Source: Echinicola soli
Lineage (GTDB): Bacteria > Bacteroidota > Bacteroidia > Cytophagales > Cyclobacteriaceae
Length of the DNA stretch: 64,000 nucleotides
Direction: 5' to 3'
Assembly: GCF_006575665.1 (NCBI RefSeq)
Contig: NZ_CP041253.1
Span: 3,261,001-3,325,000 of the forward strand
Positions 31,690-50,279 of this stretch are shown here, one piece after another (the stretch's first letter is position 1; every line of letters starts with the position of its first letter). The translations under genes and the position numbers were made by a program. The notes below the pieces were generated by a model that was not told the origin of the DNA, searched no databases, and was given only the letters and a program-made list of their open reading frames with translations.

Positions 31690-31984
31690 TAAGCCGAAGG
31701 AGCCCCTATCCACCATAGGCGGGGAGCTTGGGAGGCGGCAATCTTGTTTTCAACAACAGATTGCTTCGCTCTGCTGTTGCTTCGCTCGCAATAACAGTTT
31801 CCCTTACGTTGCGAGGAAGTATAGCCTGTCCCGAGCTATCGGGAACGTGGCAATCTCGTATTAAGAAAACGAGATTGCGTCATTCCATTCGCAACGTTTA
31901 ACTAACCGGGATTGCTTTGCTCGCAATGATGATTTTATATAAGAAGAATAGTATTCAATAAATATCAATAAAACCCACTTCATA
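31690..31984. repeat. Palindromic REP-like elements between GH43 genes
   Basis: A partial block (about 31735-31797) and a full block (31806-31931) fill most of the gap. Inside are CCCGAGCTATCGGGA and GGCAATCTCGT paired with ACGAGATTGCG. The ends read TTGCGAGGAAG and GCTCGCAATGATG. No coding potential. Confidence 0.7.
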
Positions 31985-32998: not shown

Positions 32999-33018
32999 CC
33001 TCGATTTCAAACACCTAA

Positions 33019-33127
33019 CGCCATTGCGAGGAAGTATAGCCTGTCAGGATAGCTATTGGGAACGAAGCAATCTTTTCTTCGATACACGAGATGGCTTTAC
33101 TGTGCCTTCGTTTTGTTGGCAATGACG
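33019..33127. repeat. Palindromic REP-like element
   Basis: Starts CGCCATTGCGAGGAAG and ends GTTGGCAATGACG, with a degraded centre. It occupies the gap between the GH43 and GH-A genes. Confidence 0.6.
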
Positions 33128-33172
33128 TTTATGGTTCGATAGGAAAATCCTTAGTCCAATTTAAAATTGAAT

Positions 33173-34342
33173 ATGATGAAAAAATCTATAAACCTTATCG
33201 CCTCGGTTGGTTTGGCAGCTTTGCTGCTGAGTTGTGGAGGCCAGAAACAAACAGAAGAAAAGGAAGAAATCGCTCAGGAAACTGTCTCGGAGGCTGAAGG
33301 GGAGAGATGGAGTAAGGAAAAAGCCAATGCTTGGTATGCAGCACAAGATTGGCTGGTTGGAGCCAATTTTAATCCAAGTAATTCCATCAATCAGTTGGAA
33401 ATGTGGCAGGAGGATACTTTTTCGCCGGAATTGATCGATAAAGAACTGGGCTGGGCGGAAGAGATTGGCATGAACACCATGCGGGTGTATCTTCATGACT
33501 TGGCATATCAGCAAGACCCTGATGGCTTTTTGGACCGAATGGAAAAAATGCTGGAAATCATGGACAAACACGGGATGAAGCCATTGTTTGTATTCTTTGA
33601 TTCCTGCTGGGATCCATTTGTGGAAGCAGGGGAGCAACGTGATCCCAAGCCGCATGTACACAACTCTGGGTGGGTGCAAAGTCCTGGCTATTATGCACTG
33701 GAAGACAGTACACAATACCCTAGACTGGAAAAATATGTCAAAGCGGTGGTCGGTAGGTTTGCTGATGATGACCGCATTTTGGGTTGGGATATCTGGAATG
33801 AGCCGGACAATGACACAGGCGTTTCCTACAGGGATAAAGAGCATCCAAACAAAGTGGATTATGTATTGCCTTTAATGAAGGATGCCTTCGCTTGGGCCAG
33901 GTCACAAAATCCTTCACAGCCCCTTACTTCTGGTGTTTGGCTAGGGGATTGGTCTTCGGAAGAAGTGATGACACCGATCCAGCTGGCACAGCTTCACCTT
34001 TCGGATATCATTTCATTTCACAATTACGATTCACCAGAAGAATTCCAAAAACGTATCGATTGGCTGAAGCGGTATGACCGTCCGATGCTCTGTACCGAAT
34101 ACATGGCCCGGCCAAATGGCAGTACCTTCGAAGGCTTTCTGCCTATTGCCAAAGAAGAAAATATTGCAATGTTCAATTGGGGATTGGTAGATGGAAAGAC
34201 CCAGACCAAATATCCCTGGGACAGCTGGGAGAAGGAATATACTGCAGAGCCAGACCTTTGGTTTCATGAAGTGTTTCACACGGATGGTACACCCTATAAA
34301 AAATCCGAAACTGATTTGATCAAGTCTTTGACTGGAAGATGA
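33173..34342 (+). CDS. GH5-like (clan GH-A) glycoside hydrolase lipoprotein
   Basis: 389 residues counted from ATG 33173 (an upstream TTG at 33167 is less likely); lipoprotein signal to Cys21 (ALLLSC). The (beta/alpha)8 fold of clan GH-A shows as WLVGANFNPSNSINQLEMW, MNTMRVYLHDL, ILGWDIWNEPDN (acid/base Glu in WNEP) and RPMLCTEYMAR (nucleophile Glu), then MFNWGLVDGKTQT. Close relatives are often annotated 1,4-beta-xylanase or cellulase-family protein. Activity on xylan, arabinogalactan or another beta-glycan cannot be told. Its stop codon overlaps the next start (ATGA), so the two are translationally coupled. Confidence 0.82.
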   Translation: MMKKSINLIASVGLAALLLSCGGQKQTEEKEEIAQETVSEAEGERWSKEKANAWYAAQDWLVGANFNPSNSINQLEMWQEDTFSPELIDKELGWAEEIGMNTMRVYLHDLAYQQDPDGFLDRMEKMLEIMDKHGMKPLFVFFDSCWDPFVEAGEQRDPKPHVHNSGWVQSPGYYALEDSTQYPRLEKYVKAVVGRFADDDRILGWDIWNEPDNDTGVSYRDKEHPNKVDYVLPLMKDAFAWARSQNPSQPLTSGVWLGDWSSEEVMTPIQLAQLHLSDIISFHNYDSPEEFQKRIDWLKRYDRPMLCTEYMARPNGSTFEGFLPIAKEENIAMFNWGLVDGKTQTKYPWDSWEKEYTAEPDLWFHEVFHTDGTPYKKSETDLIKSLTGR

Positions 34343-35463
34343 TAAGGGACATGTGGGTTTTGAGTATATTAATGTATATGACTTCCTGCTTTGGAGCAGG
34401 AAGTCCCCCATCCCCAAAAGATTATACGATTCGCTGGAATCAATCTACGTTAGAGAAAGTTTCAGGGGATGGCGATCACTATGCAGGCTATGCCCGATGC
34501 CGCGAATTAGCAGATGGAAGTCTGGGTTTTGCGTACGAGGCAGGCGGCAATATTTTTTTTAGAGTCCGTACCGGAAAAGGATGGCAAGAGCCAATACTCG
34601 TGGCAGCTGCAGCGCCTGAAGTAGGGATGGCGGTGCCTGATTTTACGGTTTTGGGGAATGGAGATGTGCTGCTGGGCTATAATCCGCGGCCAAGGAGAAA
34701 TGCCAAGGACAAGCACTTTGGGATCCGGACGGTAAGAAGCACGGACAATGGAACTACATGGCAAGATGACCAGCTCGTATATGAAGCGGGGACTAGCTTT
34801 GGTGATGGCTGCTGGGAGCCTGTATTCCTTCAGCTTCCAGATGGCGATATACAGCTTTACTTTGCTGATGAAGGCATATTTACCCATTCCAATGAGCAGC
34901 GGATCGCTATGGTAAGTTCCACCGACAGTGGCACCACCTGGAGTAAAATACCCAAGACAGTGAGTTTTAGAAAGGGTGCCAGAGATGGTATGCCGGTACC
35001 TGTTTGGCTAGAAAAGGAGGAGCGTATCGCGGTGGCCATTGAGGATAATGGTCACGGACCTTTTAAGCCCTATATTCTTTTCAATGACGGAACGGAATGG
35101 GATGAGGAGATAGCAGGGAACTCATCAGCTCGAAGCTATGCCATGGCCGACAGCCTGCCTGAGAAGGACTATGCCGGAGCACCCTATCTGGCCAAAGCAT
35201 CCAATGGCCTTACTTTCCTGTCTTTCCAATGGGGTGATCGATTGGAAGATGCACAGATGGCCGTTGCTATTGGAGATGAAGGCGCCCAAAACTTCACTAA
35301 TGTCACTTGGCCCTTTGATTTGGCAAAAGGTAAAACCGGACACTGGAACAGCCTTACTGTCTTGGAGGATGGGAGGATCGTGGCACTGACCAGTACCAAT
35401 GGATATTCTGAAACTGATCAGACGGAGGTATGGATGATTATGGGAGAAATGGTGAAAAAATGA
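34339..35463 (+). CDS. GH93/sialidase-like six-bladed propeller enzyme
   Basis: 374 residues, likely lipoprotein (Cys17 in YMTSC). The propeller carries Asp-box-like repeats (RSTDNGTTWQDD, SSTDSGTTWSKI) and segments GDHYAGYARCRELADGSLGF, GNGDVLLGYNPRPRR and SFGDGCWEPVFLQLPDGDIQ. This is the sialidase fold; sequence style and the surrounding GH43 genes favour GH93, the exo-1,5-alpha-arabinanase family, over a sialidase, but that is inference. It overlaps the upstream gene by 4 bases. Likely role: releasing arabinobiose from arabinan chains. Confidence 0.65.
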   Translation: MIRDMWVLSILMYMTSCFGAGSPPSPKDYTIRWNQSTLEKVSGDGDHYAGYARCRELADGSLGFAYEAGGNIFFRVRTGKGWQEPILVAAAAPEVGMAVPDFTVLGNGDVLLGYNPRPRRNAKDKHFGIRTVRSTDNGTTWQDDQLVYEAGTSFGDGCWEPVFLQLPDGDIQLYFADEGIFTHSNEQRIAMVSSTDSGTTWSKIPKTVSFRKGARDGMPVPVWLEKEERIAVAIEDNGHGPFKPYILFNDGTEWDEEIAGNSSARSYAMADSLPEKDYAGAPYLAKASNGLTFLSFQWGDRLEDAQMAVAIGDEGAQNFTNVTWPFDLAKGKTGHWNSLTVLEDGRIVALTSTNGYSETDQTEVWMIMGEMVKK

Positions 35464-35969: not shown

Positions 35970-36737
35970 CTACCTTATGCCCTGTTTGGCACCAGACAAG
36001 TCTGCCTTTGCCTGTTTCCACCTGTTTGCCTTTACCCTGATGACAAAAGATTTTTGTTGCTGAACCAATGAGGACATGAGCCAAAAGGCCGCATAGGCCC
36101 GATCCATTATAAGCAGGTCTCCCTGCCCCAGACAGGGAAGGTGACTTTCACAGAGAGAAAGTTCACTTGTCCTGTAATGCTTGATTTTGGCATCTATGCT
36201 GATTTGATTGAGTACATCGTAGGCTTGGGAAACACGGGCCAGGACTACTTTTCTGCCGTTTTCAGTCCGGGTTTCGAACTGGCCAAAACCTTTTGCCAGT
36301 TCTTTACTGTAAGGAAGCTGCAGAGTACTGCCGTCAATACCTATAAGCCGAAAACCTTTCCATCTACGGACATGGCTGGCTTTATTATAATAAAAAGAAC
36401 ATTGTTTTTCATTCAGCCAGGTAAACACCTTGGGGTTTAGTTTGGATCGCTGCTGACTGAAAGCTCCTTTGGAATAGCTGACCAATTTATCCGAAAAAAA
36501 ATCATCCAGCTCTTGCTGAACACTGGATTTACCTAAACCTAACATAAAGTAGATAAGATCAGTAAACCCCAAACACCGCTGGCGAACAAATGCTTTGTTA
36601 GTCGTACGGAACCTGTCTCGTGTCAATCCATTTTCTATATTGTTTTTTAATAGTTTTAAAAAGTCCTCCGAAAAGGAAAAGGACTTTCTCGTTGTCAGAT
36701 TTCTTTCAAAAAAACTACGCTCCCTTTGCTTACCCAA
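35970..36737 (-). pseudogene. IS4-family transposase, 3' truncated
   Basis: The frame (255 residues) covers the N-terminal part of an IS4-type DDE transposase. It includes FRTTNKAFVRQRCLGFTDLI, FSQQRSKLNPKVF, the first catalytic Asp in RLIGIDGSTLQLP and the second in GDLLIMDRAYAAFWLM. The C-terminal part with the Y-(2)-R-(3)-E signature and third acidic residue is missing, and the frame ends 12 codons after VIRVKANRW. It is therefore a non-functional remnant. Directly upstream of its start lies TTAACTAAACGACATTGAT (36755-36773), possibly the outer end of the element. Confidence 0.85.
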
Positions 36738-36939: not shown

Positions 36940-37536
36940 ATGTCCTTTTCAAAACCTAATCAAAGTGAAAACATTACCCTTGGGCAGCTTGTCAACGGGA
37001 ATGAGCAAGCCTTCTCAGTACTTTTCGAAGAGTATTCTCCCCAAGTGTATTACATAGGACTAAAGTACTTGAAGTCACAAGATTTGGCCAATGACGTGGT
37101 ACAGGATACTTTCCTGAAACTCTGGAACTATAGGTCGTATATAGATAGTTCCCAGCCGATCAAACCGCTGATCGTAACTTTTGCCAAGCGGATTATTCTC
37201 AATTTGATCCGGGATGAAAAGCGCAAGATTTTCAAGCATCTTGAGATCTATGCTGCCTCTAGCACTTATTCCAATAAAACCGAAGAACAGGTTATTTTCA
37301 ATGAAACCCATCAAGTTTACCAAGAGGCCGTGAAGGCCCTTCCAGAGCGTAGGAGGGAAGTTTTTTTGCTAAAGTCTGCCCAAGGGAAAAGCAATGAGGA
37401 AGTGGCTGAAGCCTTGGATTTATCTGTCAATACCGTCAAATCCCAATACACCAAGGCCCTGCGGGCCATTCGGGAATTTATCTCCAACTATTATGCTGTG
37501 CTGGCTCTTGCTGTAGCTGCGACAGGGGAGATATAG
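36940..37536 (+). CDS. ECF RNA polymerase sigma factor (FecI-type)
   Basis: 198 residues with sigma region 2 (about 24-93: FEEYSPQVYYIGLKYLKSQD, NDVVQDTFLKLWNYR) and region 4 (about 130-183: LPERRREVFLLKSAQGKSNE then EVAEALDLSVNTVKSQYTKA). In Bacteroidota such factors work with a FecR anti-sigma and an STN-containing outer-membrane receptor; both follow immediately (37730, 38739). It would direct transcription of the SusC operon when the receptor binds its ligand. I could not define its own promoter. Confidence 0.95.
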   Translation: MSFSKPNQSENITLGQLVNGNEQAFSVLFEEYSPQVYYIGLKYLKSQDLANDVVQDTFLKLWNYRSYIDSSQPIKPLIVTFAKRIILNLIRDEKRKIFKHLEIYAASSTYSNKTEEQVIFNETHQVYQEAVKALPERRREVFLLKSAQGKSNEEVAEALDLSVNTVKSQYTKALRAIREFISNYYAVLALAVAATGEI

Positions 37537-37729
37537 CTGATTAGTTCCTGATTAGTTTTAGAAGAGCCTTCGCTTGGTGTACAATGTCGATTGTTGACAA
37601 TCCTAATAACCTTCCAACTTCCTAACCTTCCAATCATTCCATCTATTTCATAGCTTTTTAAACTTTTTTTAACACTAGGGTAATACTTGTGACAGACTTG
37701 GGTGTATTCTTTCCAAACACTCAAAGTCA

Positions 37730-38719
37730 ATGAAACGACCTACTGAAGAGCAGTTATCAAATTATTTTAATAATCACCTGAATCCAAGGGATGCCAAAAA
37801 GGTCCTGGAATGGCTAGCTACGCCTGAAGGGCAAGCCTATTTGAACCGGCGATTGGAAGCAGATTTTAAGGCATTGGACCACGGACAGAAGATATTGCTT
37901 AGGCCCAAGGTGTCCGCAGAGGATATTCTGAGAAGTGCCGAAGCCCAGCAAAGGCGACCGGCTATGGTCAAGCACCGTCCGGGATTTGGCATACTACGCC
38001 TAGCAGCTTCCGTCGCGCTGATCTTGGCGGTGTTGGGAGGATTGATCTACGTTCTTAAGGGATGGACTTCTTATGAAGAGTATCAGACTGCCTTTGCAGA
38101 GTCAGCTGATATTCGTCTGCCAGATGGGTCGATGGTACACATGAGCGGAAATAGTAAGCTGAAGTTTGCCAAAGTTTGGGAGATCGGCGAGCCCCGCGAA
38201 ATTTGGTTTGAGGGAGAGGGTTATTTTGATGTTGTAAAGAATAAGGCTGCCAATAAATTCACAGTGAAGACTGCACAGAACTTCGATGTGCAGGTTTTGG
38301 GCACGACCTTTACCATTACTGCCCGTGAATCAGCATCAAGAGTGGTGCTGGAAACAGGGGCAATAGCACTTCATGTGGAAAGCAGGAGCGGGGCAGATCA
38401 GATCATGATGGAGCCGGGGGAACTGGTAGAGATGGATCAGGACCATGACTTACTGATCAAGAAAGAAGTAAGGCCGGAAATTTATACCAGCAGGAAAGAT
38501 GACGAACTGGTCTTCGATAAAACACCACTTAAGGAAATTACCAGAATTCTTAAGGATGATTATGGTTTCACCGTCGTAGTCAATGATTCAGAGATACTCA
38601 ATGAGAAATTCACAGGCGTAGTGCCTTCCAAGGATGTGGAAACCTTGCTGGAGGGACTGCGAAGTCTGTTGGATGTAAAAATCATCCGAGATGATAATAT
38701 CATAAAATTGATTCACTAA
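37730..38719 (+). CDS. FecR-family anti-sigma factor
   Basis: 329 residues. A short cytosolic N-terminal region (1-83) binds sigma, one membrane helix follows (GILRLAASVALILAVLGGLI, about 85-108), then the periplasmic FecR domain (IRLPDGSMVHMSGNSKLKFA, EGEGYFDVVKN, VLGTTFTITA), and a C-terminal STN-like DUF4974 domain (FDKTPLKEITRILKDDYGFT). It transmits the state of the SusC receptor to the sigma factor. It starts 193 bases after the sigma gene and ends 19 bases before the SusC gene. Confidence 0.95.
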   Translation: MKRPTEEQLSNYFNNHLNPRDAKKVLEWLATPEGQAYLNRRLEADFKALDHGQKILLRPKVSAEDILRSAEAQQRRPAMVKHRPGFGILRLAASVALILAVLGGLIYVLKGWTSYEEYQTAFAESADIRLPDGSMVHMSGNSKLKFAKVWEIGEPREIWFEGEGYFDVVKNKAANKFTVKTAQNFDVQVLGTTFTITARESASRVVLETGAIALHVESRSGADQIMMEPGELVEMDQDHDLLIKKEVRPEIYTSRKDDELVFDKTPLKEITRILKDDYGFTVVVNDSEILNEKFTGVVPSKDVETLLEGLRSLLDVKIIRDDNIIKLIH

Positions 38720-38738
38720 CCATTTAACCCATAAACTT

Positions 38739-41700
38739 ATGAAAATAAAGTTTTTACCTATTATGGGGTGCATTTTGATAGGGAATTTAGGATGGGCCAA
38801 TTCGCTCCAGCAAGAGGCGCTCTCCTATAATTACCAAATCGAAAATACTCGCTTGACGACCATGAAAACGGTCAGTCTGACCAGCCTCCTTAAGGTGGTC
38901 GAGAAAAAATATGACGTGTCTTTTCTCTATAAAGATGAGATCAGCCAAGAGGCCATTCTTGGTGACGAGACACTTCTCGAGGGCTTGTCTTTTGGAGAGG
39001 CGCTAAAAATGATCAATAGCAAAAATCCTGAATTGGAATTTAGTCGTATAAAAGCGGATTTTTATACTGTTAAGCTTAGCGAACCTAAAACGGGATTGCC
39101 ACTGGCAGCGGGAAGAAGCCCTGAGAATTCAACGCTCAAAACATCCAAAAGTATCGCTAGAAATATTTCCGGAACTGTCAGTACAAGTGATGGAGAGACA
39201 TTGCCGGGTGTCAGCATTATGATCAAAGGCACCACCAAAGGTACCGTAACCGATCTGGATGGTGGTTTTGCTCTCAGTGTGCCGGATGGACAGGTGACAC
39301 TCGTGGTCTCTTTCGTTGGATATAAGAAGAAGGAAGTCATCGTTCCTGTTGGAGAGTCTACCGTGGACGTGGTGATGGATAATGATGTCCAGTCCCTGGA
39401 TGAAGTGGTAGTCGTCGCCTATGGCGAGCAGACAAAAGCATCCTTTACCGGTGCAGCGGTGGATGTGAAAATGGACAAAGTGCAGGGTGCTCCCCGTGCA
39501 TCTTTTCAGGAGAGTTTGCAAGGGAATATTGCGGGGGTACAGTCTGCGGCGGCTTCTGGTCAGCCCGGCTATGCACCAAACATTCGCATCAGGGGTGTAG
39601 GCTCCATCAATGCCAGCTCAGATCCTTTATACGTAGTGGACGGAATTCCTGTGGTGGCAGGAAATATTTCCCAGATAGCCACAAGTTCTAATACCATAGC
39701 AGGATTGAACCCCAATGATATTGCATCAATGACCGTGTTGAAGGACGCCTCTGCCACTTCGATCTATGGGTCCAGAGGAGCAAATGGCGTGATCCTTATT
39801 ACTACCAAGCAAGGGAAATCGGGAAAGACGAAATTTGACGTCAGCATGCAACGCGGTACCAGCCAAGTGCTGCTGGATGATCGAAACAAACCACTGTCCA
39901 CCCCGGAACTGGCAGAATTGCTGGTCGAATCCAGGGTAAATTATGGAGATACACAGCAAGAGGCCGAGGACTATATTTATAGCCGGATCGATCAAAATAT
40001 CAACACCAATTGGTTTGATGTCATTTCCCGGGACGGAACCTACCAACAATATTACATCAGTGCTTCAGGAGGAAATGAGAAGACCAATTTTTATTCTTCC
40101 ATAGGCTATTATGATCAGGAAGCGCCCATCATTGGCATTGACTATGAAAAGCTCAACGCAAAAGTGAATGTGCGCCATGCGGCCACCGAAAAGCTGACCC
40201 TGGATTTTGGATTGGCGGCCAATACACAGCTGATGCATACCAATAGTGAAGCAGGAAGTGCCAATAATCCGGTGAGAAGTATGTTCAGGGAAGTGCCCTG
40301 GGAGCCAGTTTATAATGAAGATGGTAGTTATAATACCGACATACTCTTGACCTACAACCCCGTAGGGCTGGTCAATGAAAATATCAGAGAAACCAGGCTG
40401 TACAATGCCCTGGGGAATGTGGGACTGAAGTATGATATCATGGATAACTTTTCCTTCGAAACCAAAGCCAACCTGGACTTTAACCTAGCTGACGAATTTC
40501 AGTATGATAATCCTTACTTTGGTGCGGGAAGGAATGACGGTGGCCGTGGTCGTGCCTATACCAATATCGTGGTCAATTGGAATGTTACCAACCTCCTGAA
40601 ATATCGCTGGGTGATGGATGATAATAACAGTATTGCCTTTACACTGGGCCAGGAAGCGCAGAAAATATCCGCCAATTCGGTGTATGCTTACGCCAGTAAT
40701 TACGGTGCTCCTGGCTTGACCACATTAGCGAATGCCTCTGTTTTTAAAGATGCTTCTTCGGAAAAAACAGCCTCTTCCATCACCTCATTTTTCCTAAGTG
40801 CGAATTATTCGTTTTCTGACAAGTATTACTTTAATGTAACAGGAAGAAGGGATGGATCTTCGCGGTTCGGTTCATCTGTCCGCTATGCCAACTTCGGTTC
40901 CGTGGGCTTAGGCTGGAATATTCATAAAGAGGAGTTCTTCGATGTGGGCTTCGTGGATGAGTTGAAGCTTCGGGGAAGTTATGGTATCAATGGTAACCAA
41001 GGGATAGGGGATTTTGAATCCCGGGGATTGTATAACACCGGGAATGATTATAATGGCCTGCCAGGATATGCCTACTCCCAACAGTCCAACCCGTACCTGA
41101 CCTGGGAGAAAAACAAGCCTTTGAACATCGGTTTGGATTTCAGGATTTTGGAAAGGTTAAGTGGTACGGTTGAATATTACAATAGAATGACTTCAGACTT
41201 GCTGCTGAATGTGCCCATTTCCGGAACAAACGGTATCACCAGTTACATGGCAAATATCGGAGAAATGCAAAATAGAGGCCTGGAATTTAGCCTGAGTGCT
41301 GTGAATATCCAACGTCCCGATGGACTCCAATGGACCACTGATTTCAACTTGACCACAAACAAAAATGAAGTGGTAAAACTAAAGGATGGAGAGGACATTG
41401 TCGATGGGCAATACATCCGTCGTGAAGGGGCAGATTTCTATACGTTCTACATGCCCGGTTATGCTGGCGTAGATCCCAATAATGGCGATGCGCTCTGGTA
41501 CACCGATGGCTCCGAAAGCGAAACTACCAATGATTATGGAAATGCCGATCCATACGAGCATGGAAATGCTTCACCGAAGTTCTTTGCCGGCTTGAACAAT
41601 ACCTTTAATTACAAAGGATTCGGACTGTCTTTTCTCTTTTACCTGAATTATGGCAACAAGGTCTATGATTACTGGGGCAGGTATGTAGCCAGTGATGGAA

Positions 41701-42083
41701 GTGCCCAGCTCAATGATCGTGGAAACATGAGCAGAAAGATCTATGAGCGCAGGTGGCAGGAACCGGGAGATATGACAGATGTACCTAAGGTAGTATGGGG
41801 AAATACCCAGTCGGGAAGCTCAAGCCAGCATTCCACTCGCTTTCTGTATGATGGCACCTATCTCCGTCTCAGGGATGTGACCCTTTCTTATAACCTCCCC
41901 AATTCTTTGCTGAGCAAATTAAAAATCAGCAATGCTAGGATCTACCTGAGAGGCAATAATGTATGGACTTGGGTAAAGGACAAGAATCTGGAGTCTGATC
42001 CAGAGGTAGGTATTGCCGGGATGACAGACCTTAGAATCCCTACATCCAGGCAGTATTTATTGGGTATTGACTTTTCATTCTAA
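38739..42083 (+). CDS. SusC-family TonB-dependent receptor with N-terminal STN signalling domain
   Basis: 1114 residues. A signal peptide (MKIKFLPIMGCILIGNLGWA) is followed by an STN domain (about 45-110: MKTVSLTSLLKVVEKKYDVS, FLYKDE), a carboxypeptidase-D-like domain (about 143-215), then the plug (about 225-345: SDPLYVVDGIPVVAG, SIYGSRGANGVILI) and barrel. STN domains contact FecR-type proteins, so this receptor can report ligand capture to the upstream sigma/FecR pair. It lies 12 bases before its SusD. The enzymes 3' of the pair point to D-amino-acid-containing ligands rather than a glycan (inference). Confidence 0.95.
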   Translation: MKIKFLPIMGCILIGNLGWANSLQQEALSYNYQIENTRLTTMKTVSLTSLLKVVEKKYDVSFLYKDEISQEAILGDETLLEGLSFGEALKMINSKNPELEFSRIKADFYTVKLSEPKTGLPLAAGRSPENSTLKTSKSIARNISGTVSTSDGETLPGVSIMIKGTTKGTVTDLDGGFALSVPDGQVTLVVSFVGYKKKEVIVPVGESTVDVVMDNDVQSLDEVVVVAYGEQTKASFTGAAVDVKMDKVQGAPRASFQESLQGNIAGVQSAAASGQPGYAPNIRIRGVGSINASSDPLYVVDGIPVVAGNISQIATSSNTIAGLNPNDIASMTVLKDASATSIYGSRGANGVILITTKQGKSGKTKFDVSMQRGTSQVLLDDRNKPLSTPELAELLVESRVNYGDTQQEAEDYIYSRIDQNINTNWFDVISRDGTYQQYYISASGGNEKTNFYSSIGYYDQEAPIIGIDYEKLNAKVNVRHAATEKLTLDFGLAANTQLMHTNSEAGSANNPVRSMFREVPWEPVYNEDGSYNTDILLTYNPVGLVNENIRETRLYNALGNVGLKYDIMDNFSFETKANLDFNLADEFQYDNPYFGAGRNDGGRGRAYTNIVVNWNVTNLLKYRWVMDDNNSIAFTLGQEAQKISANSVYAYASNYGAPGLTTLANASVFKDASSEKTASSITSFFLSANYSFSDKYYFNVTGRRDGSSRFGSSVRYANFGSVGLGWNIHKEEFFDVGFVDELKLRGSYGINGNQGIGDFESRGLYNTGNDYNGLPGYAYSQQSNPYLTWEKNKPLNIGLDFRILERLSGTVEYYNRMTSDLLLNVPISGTNGITSYMANIGEMQNRGLEFSLSAVNIQRPDGLQWTTDFNLTTNKNEVVKLKDGEDIVDGQYIRREGADFYTFYMPGYAGVDPNNGDALWYTDGSESETTNDYGNADPYEHGNASPKFFAGLNNTFNYKGFGLSFLFYLNYGNKVYDYWGRYVASDGSAQLNDRGNMSRKIYERRWQEPGDMTDVPKVVWGNTQSGSSSQHSTRFLYDGTYLRLRDVTLSYNLPNSLLSKLKISNARIYLRGNNVWTWVKDKNLESDPEVGIAGMTDLRIPTSRQYLLGIDFSF

Positions 42084-42095
42084 ACCACTCAAACC

Positions 42096-43508
42096 ATGAA
42101 AAAATTACACTTATATATCATAGCCGGGACAATGATGACGGGAAGTTTGTCTTCCTGTAGCGAGTCCTTTCTTGAGATTGATCCAGAGCAAAGCGTGTCT
42201 ACCAATAATGCAGTGACCGATGTGAATACCCTTCAGACAGCGATGAACGGAGTATATAGCAAGCTTCAGGATGATGGATATTATGGTCGCTCGGTGTACA
42301 TTATTCCAGAACTGATGGCCGATAACCTCTACCTAAGCCTTAGGAACACTGGGAGGTATTTGGATTATCATAACTTTATCGTTCGTGAGCAGGATTCCTA
42401 TGCAGAAGATCTCTGGAATACTTCCTATGAAGTAGTGATCAATGCCACCCGTGCCATCCAGGGCGGTGAGGCCTTGGAGGTTACCGGTGATCAGCAGAGC
42501 ACCGCTAACCAATTGATCGGAGAGGCTTATGCTTTGCGGGCCTTGGGGCATTTTGACTTGACACGGTTCTTTGCCCAGCCGTATAATTTTACTGCTGATG
42601 CCAGCCATCTTGGTGTGCCGGTAATCGCCAGCATCGGGGATGATCCTATTTCTCCGGCCAGGAATAGTGTAAAAGAGGATTTTGACTTGATCATTGCGGA
42701 TTTGGACAAATCCATCAGCCTAATGAGCAGAGGTAGCGCAAATGGAACATTTTCTGTCAATGCTGCCAAGACTTTGCTTTCTAGAGTGTATCTTTATACA
42801 GCGCAATATGACCTGGCCGCCCAAAATGCCACCGAGGTGATCGAAAGTGGTGATTACGAGTTGTTGTCAGCAGATAATTACAGCTCCATATGGGCACCGG
42901 ACTATAACTCGGAAATCATCTTCGAAATTGTCAACACCTTAGCAGATAATGCAGGAACCAACGGATTGGGACATTTCTTTGCTGAGGAAGGGTATGCTGA
43001 TGCGTTGGTCACAGAAGAGCTGTTTGGGCTGTATGAAGATTCGGATGCACGAAAAACAGCCATTGTCAGAAAACCTAAAAATGGGGCTGAAGATGATGCC
43101 TTGTTTGTGATGAAATTCCCCCAAGGGGCCTTACAGGATGACAATGTGAAGATCCTTCGGTTGGCAGAATTATACTTGATCAGGGCAGAGGCTTATGCCA
43201 AAACCAATCAGCCAGCACTCGCGCTTCAAGACCTGAATACCATCCGGCAGACCAGGGACCCCGAAGCTGCACCAGTAGCGGCCAGTGGCGAGGAACTGCT
43301 CATTAGTATTCTGGAAGAACGCAGAAAGGAACTGGCTTTTGAAGGTCATCGCTTGTTTGACCTTAACCGTAATAAGATGGACGTTAATATCGATCAAGGG
43401 GAAGAGGTGATCGCAGCTTCCTATCCGAATGATCGGTTTATCCTGCCCATTCCATTGTCAGAGCTGAATGCAAACCCGAATATAGTGCCCCAAAATGACG
43501 GTTATTAA
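42096..43508 (+). CDS. SusD/RagB-family lipoprotein
   Basis: 470 residues; lipoprotein signal to Cys21 (SLSSC) with acidic residues after it. Typical SusD features are EAYALRALGHFDLTRFFAQP, LAELYLIRAEAYAKTNQPAL, and ILEERRKELAFEGHRLFDLN near the C terminus, ending PLSELNANPNIVPQN. It is shorter than the other two SusD proteins here, of the RagB-like size often tied to smaller or peptide ligands. A good terminator hairpin follows 21 bases after the stop. Confidence 0.95.
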   Translation: MKKLHLYIIAGTMMTGSLSSCSESFLEIDPEQSVSTNNAVTDVNTLQTAMNGVYSKLQDDGYYGRSVYIIPELMADNLYLSLRNTGRYLDYHNFIVREQDSYAEDLWNTSYEVVINATRAIQGGEALEVTGDQQSTANQLIGEAYALRALGHFDLTRFFAQPYNFTADASHLGVPVIASIGDDPISPARNSVKEDFDLIIADLDKSISLMSRGSANGTFSVNAAKTLLSRVYLYTAQYDLAAQNATEVIESGDYELLSADNYSSIWAPDYNSEIIFEIVNTLADNAGTNGLGHFFAEEGYADALVTEELFGLYEDSDARKTAIVRKPKNGAEDDALFVMKFPQGALQDDNVKILRLAELYLIRAEAYAKTNQPALALQDLNTIRQTRDPEAAPVAASGEELLISILEERRKELAFEGHRLFDLNRNKMDVNIDQGEEVIAASYPNDRFILPIPLSELNANPNIVPQNDGY

Positions 43509-43529
43509 TTAACCTGATGAGGCTTCAGG

Positions 43530-43562
43530 CGAGGGAGTACTCATATTCCCTCGTTTGTTTTA
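43530..43562 (+). terminator. Rho-independent terminator after SusD gene
   Basis: Stem CGAGGGA (43530-43536) with TCCCTCG (43547-43553), 10-base loop, followed by TTTGTTTTAT. It falls between SusD and the D-amino-acid enzyme genes, so these either need a second promoter or rely on read-through. The following 43613-43703 is a degraded REP-like stretch. Confidence 0.7.
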
Positions 43563-43737
43563 TATGGACCCGGGTTCAATGCCGTTTGGATAAGAGCAGA
43601 CAGTGACCAAGCTGTCATGCCGACGAGTAGCCTGTCACGATTTGTCGTCTGGATAGCCTGCCCCACATCACTATCGGGGACATACGTTAACTAAACGGCA
43701 TTACATGCGGGTGGAACACGGAAAAATAGATCAATTG

Positions 43738-45021
43738 ATGAATAAAAAATACATGATCCTGGTCATAGTGGGATTACTCTCAGTCACACTGGCATGCCAA
43801 AGGAGTAAGGTGGTTTTTCAAGAGGGCAATCCCAAGGCTGAACAGTTGGACAGTCTATTCCACTATTTATATGCTGAAGGCCTGTATAATGGTGCCGTGG
43901 CGGTAGTGGATGAAGGGGAGTTGATCTTCAAGAAGGCGTATGGGCTGGCCAATTTGGAGGACAGCAGTGCTTTCGGAACCGGTACCGCCATGGAAGTGGC
44001 CTCCGTGTCCAAACAGTTTACCGCGTCCGCAATCATGCACCTTGCCCAAGAGCACAAACTATCCATAACGGATGATATCCGGGCTTACCTGCCAGCGGGG
44101 TTTCCCTATGAGGGCATTTCCATCAAGCATCTCTTGAGCCATACAGCTGGAGTGCCTGATTATACCACCTATTTCATTGATCATTGGCCCAAAAATCAGT
44201 TGGCAAACAACAAGGACATCGTTGCTTATTTCATAAAACATCAGCCTCCTGTGAAATTTGCTCCGGGAACAGACTATGATTATAGTAACACTGGCTACGT
44301 ACTGCTGGCAGAAATCGTCGAAAACGCATCAGGCATGCCCTTGGATGATTACCTTGAAGAGCAGCTTTTTAAGCCTTTTGCATTTCAGAATGCTGGGTTT
44401 TACCAGCGGTCCGAAATCTATGATTTGAAAAACTACGCCCCTTCTTTCAGGTGGTCTACGGATTCTTGCCGATATATCCGGCCTGAGCATTTGCCGGGCA
44501 AAGCCTATTACTTTTTCCTTAGTGATCGATTGGGGCCAGGGAGGCTTTCAGTTAATGTAGAGGATCTTTTACGATGGGACCGGTTGCTCTATACGAATGA
44601 TTTTCTTTCGCAGGGAAGTAAGGAATCCATGTTTACGCCAGTGGAATATGAAGGGGTGGACACCGATTATGGTTTTGGTTGGCATAATTATGAAGATGAC
44701 AAAGTAGGAGCGGTGAGCTACCATACCGGGAGCTGGGCAGGTAATCTGAGCTATATTAAACGGTTTAGGGAGGTGAAAAGTACTATAATCCTCCTGAACA
44801 ATACCAATAGCCCTTATATGAAAGAAATCAGAAACGCCGTAGATGCAATCGTCACTGCGCGTGAAATGACGCCTATTTATCCGTCATTAAAAGACCGGTT
44901 TTCCAAACTTTCCTGTCAGCAAGGATTTGAGGGAGGAAGTTGGCTCGAAGGGCTTAATTTGGATGAGTATAGCTTTACGGCGGAAGAAATAGAGGAAATT
45001 AAAGACACCATTAACCATTAA
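43738..45021 (+). CDS. Class C beta-lactamase-family serine hydrolase lipoprotein (D-aminopeptidase/DD-peptidase type)
   Basis: The start at 43738 (not 43705) gives a lipoprotein signal ending VTLAC (Cys20); 427 residues. The three beta-lactamase/DD-peptidase motifs are present: S89-V-S-K92 (SxxK), YSN in DYDYSNTGYVLLAEI, and HTG in SYHTGSWAGNLSY. The family cleaves D-Ala-containing peptides, D-amino-acid amides or esters at a Ser nucleophile; it acts outside the cytoplasm. It leads a three-gene run (11-base gap to the next gene) whose other members are a racemase and an N-acyl-D-amino-acid deacylase, favouring a peptide with D-residues. Esterase activity is an alternative. Confidence 0.85.
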   Translation: MNKKYMILVIVGLLSVTLACQRSKVVFQEGNPKAEQLDSLFHYLYAEGLYNGAVAVVDEGELIFKKAYGLANLEDSSAFGTGTAMEVASVSKQFTASAIMHLAQEHKLSITDDIRAYLPAGFPYEGISIKHLLSHTAGVPDYTTYFIDHWPKNQLANNKDIVAYFIKHQPPVKFAPGTDYDYSNTGYVLLAEIVENASGMPLDDYLEEQLFKPFAFQNAGFYQRSEIYDLKNYAPSFRWSTDSCRYIRPEHLPGKAYYFFLSDRLGPGRLSVNVEDLLRWDRLLYTNDFLSQGSKESMFTPVEYEGVDTDYGFGWHNYEDDKVGAVSYHTGSWAGNLSYIKRFREVKSTIILLNNTNSPYMKEIRNAVDAIVTAREMTPIYPSLKDRFSKLSCQQGFEGGSWLEGLNLDEYSFTAEEIEEIKDTINH

Positions 45022-45032
45022 CCACGCATAGC

Positions 45033-46562
45033 ATGTTATACCGGAAAATAGGAATCTGCATATGGGCCATTCCTTTTTTGATCAGTTGTGGCCAAGGAAA
45101 AGTGGAGAAAAATGAATCGGTGGAGGTTCTCGATAACCTGCCGATCGAAAAAGCCATTTTGGAGCAGCGAGAGAGTTTTTATTATGTGGACTTTGGGCAA
45201 TATCCAGAAATGGACAAAGGACTGCCCATTGGAGTTTTCGATTCGGGTACGGGAGGACTTACGGTATTGGATGCGATCGTACAGTATGATGGGCATCAGA
45301 ATAATAATAAGGCCACCGGGGCTGATGGGGAGCCGGATTTTGATAAGGAAACGTTTATCTATTTGGCCGATCAGGCCAATATGCCCTATGGCAATTATTC
45401 AAGTGAGGGAAAAACCGATTTATTGGTGGAGCATATTATCAAGGACACCCAGTTTTTGCTTTCCGATAAGTACTATAAAGAGGCCAAGGCCAAAAACTAT
45501 AGCCAAGACAAATCCCCGGTCAAAACCCTTGTGATCGCCTGCAATACTGCTACAGCCTATGGAAAGGAACTGATCGATCAGTTTATCGAAAAGGCGGGCA
45601 TAAATGTGCATGTGATTGGTGTGATCGATGCAGGTGCCAGGGGAGTCCTGCAGGTTTTTGACCAATCAGGGAATGGATCTATTGGTGTGATGGCGACAGT
45701 GGGTACGGTAGCTTCGAAGGGCTATGAAAATACCATTGTAAGAATCAAAGAGGAGCAAGGATATACTGGGAAAATCCGTATTTACAATCAAGGTGGGCAT
45801 GGTATAGCAGAAGCGGTGGATGAAGAGCCGGATTTCATTAACCGTGATGCCAGCAAGCCAAGAGATAGCTATCGGGGCCCTTCACTGGACAATCCGGAGT
45901 TTAAAATTGACAGGTCCTTACTGGATATCTATAATTTTGATTTTGACCATTCTAAGATGCTTTGTGATGCCAGAGACACGGATGATTGTACTGTGCTGCA
46001 GTTGAACGATACTGAAAACTATGTGCGATACCACCTGGTTTCTTTAATGGAAAAGATCAGAAAGGATCCAGAAGCCTTGCCACTGAAGGCCATTGTATTG
46101 GGCTGCACCCATTATCCTTACTTGACCTCAGACATCGAGATGGTTTTGGGAGAACTTTATGATTATGAAAAGAACGGGGAGTTTATCTACCGGGATTTTA
46201 TGAGTGAGGATATCGCCATTATTGATCCAGCGGTAAAAGTAGCGGAGGAACTGTATGCTTATCTGCAAGAAAATGACCTTTTCAATCCTACAGGCGATAT
46301 GTACAAAAGCCGGTTTTTCATCAGTGTTCCCAATACTGATAATCCTAAAGTGACCACAGACGAAAACGGTCGCTTCCCATATGAGTATAAGTATGGAAGG
46401 AGTGCCGGGGAAATCCAGGAATATGTGAAAGTGGTGCCTTTTGCCCCGTCCAACATTCCGAAGGAGACCATTGATCGGCTTTCAGGTGCGATCCCAGCGA
46501 CTTTTCAGTTGATACCAGGGTTAAATTCGAAAGAGAAAGTACTGAGTCACCATGGAGAATAG
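45033..46562 (+). CDS. Extracytoplasmic MurI-family (glutamate racemase-like) lipoprotein
   Basis: 509 residues with a lipoprotein signal (MLYRKIGICIWAIPFLISC, Cys19). The MurI hallmarks are complete: GVFDSGTGGLTVL from residue 67, first catalytic Cys170 in IACNTATAYG, and second catalytic Cys358 in LGCTHYPYL. Typical MurI is about 265 residues and cytosolic. Here there are extra segments before Cys170 and about 75 additional residues between the two cysteines (region KPRDSYRGPSLDNPEF to CDARDTDDCTVLQ). Predicted to interconvert L- and D-Glu (or Asp), or process a related substrate, in the periplasm. Sandwiched between the serine hydrolase and the deacylase, overlapping the latter by 11 bases. 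Confidence 0.85.
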   Translation: MLYRKIGICIWAIPFLISCGQGKVEKNESVEVLDNLPIEKAILEQRESFYYVDFGQYPEMDKGLPIGVFDSGTGGLTVLDAIVQYDGHQNNNKATGADGEPDFDKETFIYLADQANMPYGNYSSEGKTDLLVEHIIKDTQFLLSDKYYKEAKAKNYSQDKSPVKTLVIACNTATAYGKELIDQFIEKAGINVHVIGVIDAGARGVLQVFDQSGNGSIGVMATVGTVASKGYENTIVRIKEEQGYTGKIRIYNQGGHGIAEAVDEEPDFINRDASKPRDSYRGPSLDNPEFKIDRSLLDIYNFDFDHSKMLCDARDTDDCTVLQLNDTENYVRYHLVSLMEKIRKDPEALPLKAIVLGCTHYPYLTSDIEMVLGELYDYEKNGEFIYRDFMSEDIAIIDPAVKVAEELYAYLQENDLFNPTGDMYKSRFFISVPNTDNPKVTTDENGRFPYEYKYGRSAGEIQEYVKVVPFAPSNIPKETIDRLSGAIPATFQLIPGLNSKEKVLSHHGE

Positions 46563-48114
46563 GAAGGGAAGTAGACGCTGGGTCCTGCCGCTGTTTTTTT
46601 GGCTGATGGCTTCATGCAAACCAATGGTGGAGGTGGACGTGTTGATTACCGGTGGGATGGTATTTGACGGGAGCGATTCTCCGGCAGAACGCATGGAAGT
46701 GGGGATTACAGATGACCGAATCAGTTATGTTGGAGCTCCCGGGGAGCATGAAATTTCCAGTCATCAGACAATTGATATTGCAGGATTATACCTGGCACCG
46801 GGATTTATCGATCCGCATACCCATGTGGAGCGAGAGCTGTCAAATCCTGAGCAAAAAGCTAACCTACGCTATCTCAGACAGGGAGTGACTACGGTCTTTG
46901 CAGGCAATGATGGCAGTAGCTCAATGCCCATCAAGCGAAAACTGGACGAGTGGGAAAGAGATGGTATCGGTACTAATGCAGCCCTGCTCGTCGGCCATGG
47001 ATCGGTAAGAAGGGTGGTCATGGGAATGGAGGCCAAAGAAGCCAACCCAAAAGAGCTTAAGGAAATGGAAGAAGTGGTCAATAAGTCCATGGAAGAGGGC
47101 GCATTTGGAATTTCTACAGGTCTTTTTTATGCTCCGGGAAGTTTTGCAAATATGGAGGAGGTAATTGCTCTGTCCAAAGTCGTGGCCAAGCATAATGGGA
47201 TTTATGATACCCATATGCGAGATGAAGGATCTTACAATATCGGCCTGATGAATGCTGTCAGGGAAACCATTGACATTGGAGAAAAGTCAGGAGTAGGTGT
47301 GCACATTTCCCATATCAAATGTCTTGGTACGGATGTGTGGGATAAGAGCCATGAGGTAATCAGGCTGATAGAGAACGCAAGGCAGCAAGGCCTTCAGGTG
47401 ACGGCAAACCAATATCCCTACTTGGCCTCGAGGACTTCACTAAAGGCCGCTTTGGTGCCCAGATGGGCAGAGGATGGAGGGTATGAAAAAATGGTGGAGC
47501 GGTTTGATAACCCAGCTTTGCAGGACACTTTGGTGGCTGGTATTACCGAGAATCTCCGCAAAAGGGGCGGCCCCGAATCGCTGATATTTTCCGATGCCGT
47601 GGAGGAAACCATGAATGGAAAGAGCTTAGGTGAAATGTCCAAGAAGCTGAAAATGACCTTGCCACAGGCCACTATGGAAATCCTCAGAAAAGATGGAGGC
47701 ATCAAAGTGATTTCCTTTAATATGAAAGAGAGCGATTTGGAGCGATTCATGCAGCAGCCCTGGGTGATGACAGGTTCTGATGGTGGTGCGGGACACCCGA
47801 GGCAATTTGGTACCTTTTCCCGTAAAATGCACAAGTATGTGGAGGAAGATAAGGTCATCGACCTGTCCTTTATGGTCCATAGCTCCTCAGGGCTTACGGC
47901 TGAGACTTTTGGTGTGAAGGAAAGAGGATATGTAAAAGAAGGATACTTCGCTGATTTGATTGCCTTTGACCCGGAGAAGGTGAAGGATAAGGCCACATTT
48001 GAGCATCCTTACAAGGAAGCACAAGGAATGGACTTCGTTTGGGTTAATGGGGTGTTGGTGATCGATGATGGAAAATACACGGGGAAATTGGCAGGTAAGG
48101 CGTTGAGAAAGTGA
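46552..48114 (+). CDS. N-acyl-D-amino-acid deacylase (D-aminoacylase-type amidohydrolase) lipoprotein
   Basis: 520 residues; lipoprotein signal MENRKGSRRWVLPLFFWLMA then SC (Cys22). The amidohydrolase fold shows as VDVLITGGMVFDGSDSPAER, metal-binding H89 and H91 in APGFIDPHTHVERE, YDTHMRDEG, GVGVHISHIKCLG and VMTGSDGGAGHPR (catalytic Asp region), and the C-terminal return to the beta-sandwich (FADLIAFDPEKV). D-aminoacylases of this type are zinc enzymes that hydrolyse N-acyl-D-amino acids, including D-Glu forms. Start overlaps the racemase gene by 11 bases (translational coupling). Other amidohydrolase activities such as isoaspartyl or cyclic-amide cleavage are possible. Confidence 0.85.
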   Translation: MENRKGSRRWVLPLFFWLMASCKPMVEVDVLITGGMVFDGSDSPAERMEVGITDDRISYVGAPGEHEISSHQTIDIAGLYLAPGFIDPHTHVERELSNPEQKANLRYLRQGVTTVFAGNDGSSSMPIKRKLDEWERDGIGTNAALLVGHGSVRRVVMGMEAKEANPKELKEMEEVVNKSMEEGAFGISTGLFYAPGSFANMEEVIALSKVVAKHNGIYDTHMRDEGSYNIGLMNAVRETIDIGEKSGVGVHISHIKCLGTDVWDKSHEVIRLIENARQQGLQVTANQYPYLASRTSLKAALVPRWAEDGGYEKMVERFDNPALQDTLVAGITENLRKRGGPESLIFSDAVEETMNGKSLGEMSKKLKMTLPQATMEILRKDGGIKVISFNMKESDLERFMQQPWVMTGSDGGAGHPRQFGTFSRKMHKYVEEDKVIDLSFMVHSSSGLTAETFGVKERGYVKEGYFADLIAFDPEKVKDKATFEHPYKEAQGMDFVWVNGVLVIDDGKYTGKLAGKALRK

Positions 48115-48525: not shown

Positions 48526-48559
48526 AAAGCTATGAGATTGTTTTCATAGCTTTTTTTTT
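48526..48559 (+). terminator. Rho-independent terminator of tRNA-like gene
   Basis: AAAGCTATGA (48526-48535) pairs with TCATAGCTTT (48544-48553) and runs into nine T residues. Together with the upstream promoter it makes the tRNA-like gene a self-contained transcription unit. Confidence 0.8.
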
Positions 48560-48953: not shown

Positions 48954-49084
48954 GACATACCAAATGAATGAAAACCTTAACCTGCTCCTCAGAAATAGGG
49001 CTTGATCCTATATTTTCTCTTATATAAGGTGGAAAAGTACGAATAGTTGGCGGATATTTTTGTGGAGGAAATCAATAAATCGAC

Positions 49085-49092
49085 TACTTTTG
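49085..49092 (+). promoter_or_regulatory. Candidate -7 promoter box (TACTTTTG) for GH43 gene
   Basis: TACTTTTG fits TAnnTTTG; TTTTTG ends 22 bases upstream at 49062 as a possible -33 element. The box lies 26 bases before the ATG at 49119 but inside the longer frame starting at 49047, so it supports 49119 as the start. Confidence 0.45.
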
Positions 49093-49118
49093 GCTATTGT
49101 CAATTACTGAAAATAATT

Positions 49119-50279
49119 ATGAAGCATTACCCATTTGACCAGTGGTTCACACAGGTTCTTTTCCTTGTGGCTATTACTTTTCTTTTTTCTTGTAATTCCC
49201 AAAAAGAAGAAAAAACATCCACTAAGGAACCACCAAATGAAGAAAGTACTTATAGCAATCCACTGGAGGTCGCCTTCGGGGATCCCTATATTCTAAATGA
49301 TGGCAATGGTAAATATTATATGTATGGAACAGGTGGTGGTGCTGAAGATGGTTTTGCGGCTTATTCTTCGGATGATCTGGTAGACTGGAAATTTGAAGGC
49401 CAAGTCTATCGCGGAAACACTGCTGATTCCTGGGCTTCCAAATTTTTTTGGGCACCGGAAGTTTATAAGATGGATGGAAAATACTACATGTTCTTCAGCG
49501 CCCAATGGAAAGTGAATCCCACTAATGAAGAGGAGAATTTTATGATCGGTGTGGCGGTAGCAGATAGTCCGACAGGTCCTTTTAAGGAAATGCATGACCG
49601 CCCGATCTTTGATCCTGGCTATCCTATCATAGATGCCAATGTGTATGAGGAAGATGGTAAATATTACCTTTATTATTCTAGGGCTTGTTACAAGCATCCT
49701 GTGGAAAGCGAAGTGGCCGATTGGGCGAGAGAAAAGGGCTGGTATGATGAAATAGAGGAGAGCTGGGTATATGGGGTGGAGCTGAAGCCTGATTTTTCAG
49801 GGGTAATTGGCGATCCGGTTTTATGTTTGAGGCCACCATTAAAAATGGATGATGCACAAGCTGAGTGGGAGAGTCGGTCTGTGACCAAGCATGAGATCAA
49901 CCGACGGTGGACAGAAGGTTCGGTGATTTTCAAGCATGAAGACACGTATTACATCATGTATTCCAGTAATTACTATGCGGGCCAAAATTATGCAGTGGGC
50001 TATGCTACAGGTAAAAGTCCCTTGGGACCATTTACCAAGGCAAGTAATAATCCAGTGCTGGAACTCAATACCCACAAGGGGGGAGAGGTTACCGGAACTG
50101 GACATAACAACATCGTCTTTTTGGAAAATGGAGAGATGTTCTGTGTTTACCATGGACGTACCAAGGAATCCGGTCAGGATAGGGTAGTGTTCCTGGACAA
50201 GATGGAAATCAAGGAGGATGGAACCTTGGTCGTACATGGCCCCACGAACAGTCCCCAGCCAATGCCTCTTAAAAAATAG
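49119..50279 (+). CDS. GH43-family lipoprotein (arabinan-active type)
   Basis: 386 residues from ATG 49119, with a lipoprotein signal (FLVAITFLFSC). GH43 triad: Asp in EVAFGDPYILNDGNGKYYMY, Asp in YPIIDANVYEEDGKYYLYYS, Glu in NRRWTEGSVIFKHEDTYYIM. FFWAPEVYKMDGKYYMFFSA is also typical. The chain is one propeller with a long insertion between blades (ACYKHPVESEVADWAREKGW). It stands next to the HTCS regulator, convergent with it, and 5.6 kb from a SusCD pair with a GH43_5-type enzyme. Probably an arabinan or arabinofuranoside hydrolase. Fine specificity unknown. Confidence 0.9.
   Translation: MKHYPFDQWFTQVLFLVAITFLFSCNSQKEEKTSTKEPPNEESTYSNPLEVAFGDPYILNDGNGKYYMYGTGGGAEDGFAAYSSDDLVDWKFEGQVYRGNTADSWASKFFWAPEVYKMDGKYYMFFSAQWKVNPTNEEENFMIGVAVADSPTGPFKEMHDRPIFDPGYPIIDANVYEEDGKYYLYYSRACYKHPVESEVADWAREKGWYDEIEESWVYGVELKPDFSGVIGDPVLCLRPPLKMDDAQAEWESRSVTKHEINRRWTEGSVIFKHEDTYYIMYSSNYYAGQNYAVGYATGKSPLGPFTKASNNPVLELNTHKGGEVTGTGHNNIVFLENGEMFCVYHGRTKESGQDRVVFLDKMEIKEDGTLVVHGPTNSPQPMPLKK

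Follow-up and report, generated by a model that had tools for sequence, protein, structure and literature searches.

What does a SusCD transport system import when none of the genes in its locus encodes a glycosidase? The question is raised by a seven-gene locus of Echinicola soli, which lies in a window of 64,000 nucleotides (the whole stretch of DNA analyzed here: contig NZ_CP041253.1, positions 3,261,001 to 3,325,000 of the forward strand). An extracytoplasmic function (ECF) sigma factor, a FecR-type anti-sigma factor, SusC and SusD are followed by three enzymes, namely an S12-family serine hydrolase, a long MurI-like racemase and a D-aminoacylase-like amidohydrolase, and all three enzymes and SusD carry a lipobox pattern. 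This gene order, proposed in an initial annotation made without database searches, is borne out by matches to Pfam and NCBIfam models. The same annotation took the locus to be dedicated to D-amino-acid substrates degraded outside the cell. The dedication is supported and can be narrowed: we read the locus, at a probability of about 0.6, as a system for D-glutamate salvage, in which SusCD imports peptides, racemization takes place outside the cytoplasm, and peptidoglycan peptides are the likeliest source. The focus on D-glutamate follows from the linkage of the racemase to D-aminoacylases in related loci, from its glutamate-racemase fold, from dgcN genes near homologs of the D-aminoacylase, and from glutamate-type partners (SDF symporter, gamma-glutamyltranspeptidase and M14 peptidase) in sister loci.

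For a census of gene linkage, contigs were scanned with an alignment of 31 relatives of the racemase, yielding 574 confirmed matches, of which the best 80 loci were kept; the counts are biased toward close relatives, and several loci lie on short contigs. A run was defined as genes on the same strand with gaps of less than 250 bases, and family models were built from the 80 loci and L002. D-aminoacylase occurs in the racemase run in 43 of the 80 loci, SusC in 31, M14 peptidase and SusD-like_2 in 21 each, FecR in 18, gamma-glutamyltranspeptidase (GGT) in 17, SDF symporter in 14, sigma factor in 13, SusD_RagB in 11, an N-formylglutamate-amidohydrolase-like protein (FGase) in 7, and penicillin acylase in 5. 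Counted by clusters, S12 hydrolases are found in 17 loci, and SusC and D-aminoacylase occur together in 30. As a control we took ordinary murI genes with their surroundings (regions no longer than 20 kb) from genomes of the same order, chosen for contig size. Twenty regions were picked and one (L140), where the model recognized no racemase, was dropped, leaving 19, including one of 14 kb (L154). Searched over their whole length, these 19 regions contain no SusC, D-aminoacylase, M14 peptidase, GGT, SDF symporter, FGase or penicillin acylase, while S12 appears in 1, FecR in 1 and sigma factor in 4. The comparison for D-aminoacylase is thus 43 of 80 versus 0 of 19.

Because the host genome (5.55 Mb, one contig) encodes at least 56 SusC proteins (56 of 134 candidates scored), a SusC neighbor alone is weak evidence. 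The arrangement itself is not due to chance, since the same seven genes occur in identical order and orientation in Echinicola arenosa (L031), E. pacifica (L032) and E. shivajiensis (L046). SusC of the window type scores 2087 to 2171 bits in the Echinicola relatives and 1464 to 1515 bits in Flavobacterium and Salegentibacter, all far above the best paralog in the host at 489 bits; a looser relative (512 to 570 bits) is found in Litoribacter, Anditalea, Belliella and Rufibacter. Among the 30 loci with both SusC and D-aminoacylase, 20 have SusD-like_2 and nine have SusD_RagB, the kind seen in the window; in the remaining one (L067) SusD was missed by clustering and was recognized through PF07980 by Pfam. 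That the same enzymes are kept with SusCD across two SusD families argues that a shared function, and not descent as a single block, holds them together.

The racemase supplies the second line of evidence. In the 31 aligned sequences, the DSGTGGLT core and the motifs ACNTATAY and GCTHYP show little or no variation, and the catalytic cysteines Cys170 and Cys358 are invariant. Its predicted structure (mean pLDDT 77.6, weak at residues 256-325), used to search PDB by fold, ranks 44 glutamate-racemase chains first and two aspartate racemases next. From these predictions glutamate-racemase action is expected and the protein may be called MurI-like; as it falls below the equivalog cut-off, it is not filed as MurI. 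The closest named relative, from Echinicola rosea, is 85% identical. A second glutamate racemase of the host, encoded by a separate murI (C1:5514609-5515355, 207.3 bits), is presumably the housekeeping enzyme. The ranking by fold also bears on a broader possibility, general scavenging of D-amino acids or N-acyl-D-amino acids with a racemase that acts on D-Asp or on several D-acids. PF01177 does span aspartate, glutamate and hydantoin racemases, and D-aminoacylases take several kinds of N-acetyl-D-amino acids, according to PMC12017989. General scavenging nevertheless seems rather unlikely to us, with aspartate racemases ranked under all 44 glutamate-racemase chains and with neighbors in related loci that are of glutamate type: GGT, dgcN/dgcA, and an SDF symporter that in L053, the one locus where it was tested, is closest to GltP (257 bits, below the cut-off of 638).

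Long racemases also occur without SusC or D-aminoacylase in the run (L095, L104, L105 and L107-L109, some on short contigs), on contigs of Aminicenantes, Ignavibacterium/Melioribacteraceae/Ignavibacteriales, Caldithrix and Neomarinimicrobiota, where the protein may have another role. In L045 (9893-12838) the racemase match, placed by hand in the census, lies inside an open frame of 981 residues, possibly as a fusion to another domain of about 480 residues.

The D-aminoacylase-like protein matches D-aminoacylase 1m7j (AfDam) best among PDB entries, with an E-value of 2.9e-73. It keeps the AfDam-type metal ligands His89, His91, His221, His254 and Asp410, together with Lys256 and Arg417, counterparts of the two residues, Lys and Arg, by which D-aminoacylases bind the alpha-carboxylate (PMC12017989). 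The same paper describes OngB, a homologous deacetylase that acts on the oxidized-chitin sugar acid GlcNAc1A; the N-acetyl-D-amino acids tested were not substrates. Growth on oxidized chitin, with the amidohydrolase as an OngB-type enzyme, is very improbable here. The match to PpOngB (9kb1, E 2.5e-53) scores under those to AfDam, 9g5m and 3gip, no family for chitin or sugar acids is represented among the seven genes, and a glutamate racemase would have no role; on scores and gene context we rejected this assignment.

Cys96 of AfDam is a metal ligand. At the equivalent position, Asp stands in 51 of 51 Bacteroidota rows of the alignment, the window protein included, and all 51 carry an insert of 36-39 residues, whereas the Cys is kept and the insert lacking in 4 of 4 AfDam-like rows. 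On this basis the window protein is filed as a subfamily separate from AfDam. In a tree of 31 rows it groups, with support 98/91, with the sampled Bacteroidota, save the Salegentibacter protein (L067), plus five proteobacterial rows. In a plasmid collection, where 14 of 189 matching records were retrieved together with 3 to 9 kb of flanking sequence (3 kb only for L114), its six closest homologs are 41-45% identical, five of them from Proteobacteria and one from Gemmatimonadota. Four of these six regions encode both a TonB receptor and dgcN, versus 0 of 4 AfDam-like regions; DgcN and DgcA form a route from D-Glu to L-Glu (PMC12363236 and PMC10845958). The four, two from Pseudoalteromonas and two from Sphingobium, also have an M14 peptidase, a penicillin acylase or an SDF symporter. 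The fifth proteobacterial homolog, from Novosphingobium, has TonB-receptor, S12-like and SDF neighbors without dgcN, and the region of the sixth, from Gemmatirosa, likewise lacks dgcN. At 33-37% identity, two of four fetched homologs have DUF1611 beside them (Haladaptatus and Croceicoccus, but not Rhodococcus or Natrialba). A second D-aminoacylase-like gene of the host lies at C1:1250857 (252.8 bits).

On the Natrialba plasmid (L123, 1-9599), the D-aminoacylase stands with dacB, lysA (diaminopimelate decarboxylase), NlpC/P60, a dipeptide epimerase and an S12 serine hydrolase, with glutamate dehydrogenase nearby, a set that resembles peptidoglycan-peptide catabolism. Natrialba, a haloarchaeon, presumably lacks peptidoglycan. 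We discarded this cluster as support for a peptidoglycan source and keep it as an analogy only, as the Cys is retained in its D-aminoacylase, which the tree places apart from the group of the window protein.

The third enzyme, the S12 hydrolase, has the motifs SVSK at residue 100 (SxxK), YSN at 193 (YxN) and HTG at 340 (HxG), and its best PDB matches are a penicillin-binding protein and alkaline D-peptidase. Its start is more likely the in-frame ATG at 43738.

Taken together, these families suggest the following scheme for D-glutamate salvage. SusCD would import peptides containing D-Glu, most likely peptidoglycan stem peptides (L-Ala-gamma-D-Glu-...). A periplasmic S12 hydrolase would trim D-residues such as D-Ala, the D-aminoacylase-like enzyme would cleave the amide on the D-Glu nitrogen (the L-Ala-D-Glu or N-acyl-D-Glu bond) and free D-Glu, the lipoprotein racemase would turn it into L-Glu, and a glutamate symporter, of the sort that some sister loci have in the run, would take L-Glu into the cell. 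Gene families, linkage, fold, catalytic residues and lipobox patterns were computed directly; from these we infer substrate, compartment, order of steps, inducer and symporter. As to compartment, acidic residues just after the lipid Cys mark surface export. Averaged only over proteins with the lipobox pattern, itself a crude one, acidic residues at positions +2 to +6 number 0.65 in racemases (40 of 80 with lipobox), 0.48 in D-aminoacylases (23 of 50) and 0.0 in S12 hydrolases (8 of 22), against 1.69 (16 of 19) and 1.5 (8 of 13) in the two kinds of SusD; GGT, at 1.4 (5 of 18), is SusD-like. Because they lack the acidic residues that SusD proteins tend to have, the three enzymes are probably periplasmic, which leaves degradation outside the cell, as first proposed, less supported.

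Sigma factor and FecR probably control the locus. The further proposal, that the receptor itself signals through an STN domain, has lost ground. Even at E<=10 the window SusC has no STN domain listed by Pfam, and relatives give sub-threshold scores (20.9 bits in L037 and 14.9 in L053, cut-off 28.4) or, in E. arenosa, none. Where an STN domain would lie there is an N-terminal extension, which keeps the domain plausible.

Which polymer supplies the D-glutamate is less clear than the focus on D-glutamate, and partners in sister loci would fit either peptidoglycan or poly-gamma-glutamate. The two Flavobacterium loci with orthologous SusC encode an extra enzyme of the L-Ala-D/L-Glu epimerase or DgcA kind (L064: NF042940 208 bits, cut-off 400), judged by eye to have no signal sequence, which fits L-Ala-D-Glu and hence peptidoglycan. 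The DxD motif is typical of dipeptide epimerases; it was dropped as a discriminator on finding it in an annotated Pseudoalteromonas DgcA as well. The main rival source is a gamma-glutamyl polymer or peptide, poly-gamma-glutamate or similar, on which the D-aminoacylase would work as a C-terminal exo-hydrolase at gamma-Glu-D-Glu. The GGT and FGase genes of the census (17 and 7 of 80 loci) speak for such a substrate, as do the two M14 proteins tested, both of L053, which match cytosolic carboxypeptidase-like protein 5 (E 1.6e-6 and 8.2e-9) in addition to M14 carboxypeptidases of bacteria; cytosolic carboxypeptidases remove glutamates. GGT, FGase and M14 are, however, absent from the runs of the window and of the other three Echinicola loci, it is not clear what an S12 enzyme of DD-peptidase type would do on poly-gamma-glutamate, and PDB yields no match for the M14 protein of a Pseudoalteromonas dgc cluster and no meaningful one for an FGase-like protein. 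We regard gamma-glutamyl substrates as unlikely, though a serious competitor.

Two other features of related loci were noted. A protein of about 331 residues recurs in eight runs (L056, L057, L058, L061, L063, L075, L076 and L098); in L058 it is closest to 2,4-diaminopentanoate dehydrogenase (240 bits, cut-off 400). The Gelidibacter neighborhood was considered as wall-sugar recycling and set aside, its genes (APH-type kinase, NagB-PIG-L, SSF symporter, MR_MLE, SDR and FAA hydrolase) forming no coherent set.

The peptidoglycan might also be the cell's own, the locus recycling shed wall fragments rather than food from other bacteria. The chemistry would be identical, and the host has an epimerase/DgcA-like gene elsewhere in its genome (224.8 bits, below cut-off). 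Yet the long racemase is rare. In a draw across the phylum it was found at E<=1e-40 in 8 of 395 genomes, the window's own included, and in a survey of 241 genomes of the order a full-length match occurred only in the window genome and in one other (G105), 75 others giving short, weak matches. The locus is accessory, not core, and because of this rarity a core recycling function does not fit; a dedicated SusCD import system also points outward. Recycling of the cell's own wall is improbable.

A number of observations count against D-glutamate salvage itself. The racemase (PF01177 33.8 bits) scores 96.3 bits to TIGR00067, below the cut-off of 146.65, and the S12 hydrolase falls below specific NCBIfam cut-offs. 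With Asp in place of the metal-ligand Cys, the chemistry of the D-aminoacylase subfamily may differ from that of AfDam, and the number of its dgcN clusters is small, with two genera and a single collection represented. The window operon has no gamma-D-Glu-mDAP (meso-diaminopimelate) peptidase, M14 peptidase or symporter. The linkage of the three enzymes to SusCD that had been proposed does recur in relatives, but the full set of SusC, S12, racemase and D-aminoacylase is present in only 9 of the 80 loci (three Echinicola, two Belliella, Litoribacter, Anditalea, Flavobacterium and Salegentibacter), and in 29 of the 80, ten of them from Sphingobacterium, the run contains no member of nine partner families. 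Nor are the 80 independent, with several species per genus. Among the seven relatives sampled evenly by the phylum draw, one has SusC with D-aminoacylase and six lack the pair, two of these having S12; loci L160, L162 and L164 of this draw are cut by contig ends, and L159 and L160 probably come from the same genomes as L037 and L109, respectively. Linkage of the racemase to SusC and D-aminoacylase is not universal.

Features of the locus are collected in Table 1.

Table 1. Genes and hairpins of the Echinicola soli locus, in window coordinates.
Feature	Position	Strand	Basis or remark
ECF sigma factor (Sig70_bacteroi1)	36940..37536	+	TIGR02985 131.9 bits, cut-off 126.4
FecR-type anti-sigma factor	37730..38719	+	PF04773 48.5 bits, PF16344 46.7 bits
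SusC/RagA TonB-dependent transporter	38739..42083	+	TIGR04056 805.5 bits; STN domain not detected
SusD/RagB lipoprotein	42096..43508	+	PF07980, PF14322; lipobox pattern
Strong hairpin with T-rich tail	43526..43557	+	between susD and the enzymes
S12-family serine hydrolase lipoprotein, DD-peptidase/D-aminopeptidase type	43705..45021	+	PF00144 167.6 bits
MurI-like lipoprotein, long (509 aa)	45033..46562	+	TIGR00067 96.3 bits; predicted fold; motifs
D-aminoacylase-like amidohydrolase lipoprotein, dgcN-linked subfamily	46552..48114	+	PF07969; 1m7j best PDB match
Terminator-like hairpin with T run, 3' of last gene	48526..48553	+	

Intergenic distances are 193 bases between sigma factor and FecR, 19 between FecR and SusC, 12 between SusC and SusD, and 196 between SusD and the S12 gene. 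The 11-base gap between S12 and racemase genes (45022-45032) and the 11-base overlap of racemase and D-aminoacylase genes (46552-46562) are exactly as initially annotated. The hairpin after susD has 14 pairs and starts 17 bases past the gene; E. arenosa and E. pacifica also have hairpins in the corresponding gap, and that of E. shivajiensis is weaker. In the two Flavobacterium loci the following gene adjoins susD directly. A probable attenuator or terminator between SusCD and the enzymes, the hairpin suggests that in Echinicola the enzymes are probably expressed at a lower level than SusCD. Perfect TTGACA/TATAAT matches at 42558 and 45907 lie within genes and were not accepted as promoters.

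The absence of glycosidase families holds for all seven genes, as first noted, although genes of GH43 and GH5 type flank the locus. Upstream, 30109-35463 encodes GH43, GH43, GH5-like and BNR-type proteins; downstream lie a GH43 gene (49047-50279) and, beyond it, a hybrid two-component regulator (50576-54766). Downstream of the E. arenosa locus, too, a GH43 gene and a frame the size of a regulator are found. A frame of 255 residues (35970-36737), situated immediately 5' of the sigma gene, resembles an IS4-family transposase (98.9 bits, cut-off 115) and may be a partial element.

How far does the locus depart from known systems? The DgcN-DgcA route is cytoplasmic. Its annotated clusters on Pseudoalteromonas and Sphingobium plasmids share with the window a TonB-dependent receptor, the same amidohydrolase subfamily and conversion of D-Glu to L-Glu, with an M14 peptidase added in Pseudoalteromonas and a penicillin acylase and dicarboxylate/amino-acid symporter in Sphingobium. 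They have a lone receptor where the window has SusCD, and, by product names, an N-acetyltransferase and an N-acetyl-D-Glu racemase where the window has a lipoprotein racemase of MurI type. No protein of the host genome matches the DgcN family (PF07755), which does match DgcN of Pseudoalteromonas. With MurI/RacE the racemase shares fold, two catalytic cysteines and the DSG and GCTHYP motifs; it differs in being about twice as long, a lipoprotein with insertions, below cut-off, and encoded in a nutrient-type locus in addition to an ordinary murI. With the D-aminoacylase AfDam (1m7j) and the N-acyl-D-glutamate deacylase BbDam (3gip) the amidohydrolase shares superfamily, His/Asp metal ligands and the alpha-carboxylate Lys and Arg, in an alignment made without BbDam; it departs from AfDam-like rows by the Asp and insert described above. 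In BbDam, Arg295 binds the side-chain carboxylate, as given in PMC12017989, and the corresponding region of the window protein carries the insert. Like other SusCD/RagAB loci with ECF sigma/FecR, the window has adjacent SusC and SusD, sigma factor, FecR and downstream lipoprotein enzymes in one run, with the hairpin intervening; unlike the usual ones, it has no glycosidase, and all three enzymes come from D-amino-acid families. RagAB of Porphyromonas imports peptides, and we know of no SusCD/RagAB system for D-Glu. The initial claim of novelty stands to this extent: among the matches listed in open-licence literature, with most subscription papers outside that scope, there is no SusCD system for D-Glu and no periplasmic or lipoprotein glutamate racemase. 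The listed matches include studies of Tannerella, which also belongs to the Bacteroidota, and its use of MurNAc derived from peptidoglycan. The parts are known; their combination, and direct racemization outside the cytoplasm, look new.

Two papers bear on what such a system would mean. D-amino acids, cell-wall D-Glu among them, are part of poorly degradable marine organic matter, and in hadal microbes direct racemization of glutamate may replace the costlier dgcN route (PMC12363236, whose available text does not place the racemase outside the cytoplasm). The D-Glu routes described in the other paper act on D-Glu already taken into the cell (PMC10845958). We propose, tentatively and at slightly less than even odds, that Bacteroidota have a class of SusCD systems dedicated to D-Glu, in which a periplasmic lipid-anchored racemase turns cell-wall D-Glu into L-Glu ahead of uptake, replacing DgcN/DgcA at lower cost, and peptidoglycan or gamma-glutamyl debris of other bacteria serves as a nitrogen source. 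If so, D-Glu would be used in a new way, by a periplasmic racemase that SusCD supplies, SusCD systems would extend beyond glycans and ordinary peptides, and a long lipoprotein racemase together with D-aminoacylase and SusC would be a genetic marker for bacteria that live in this way.

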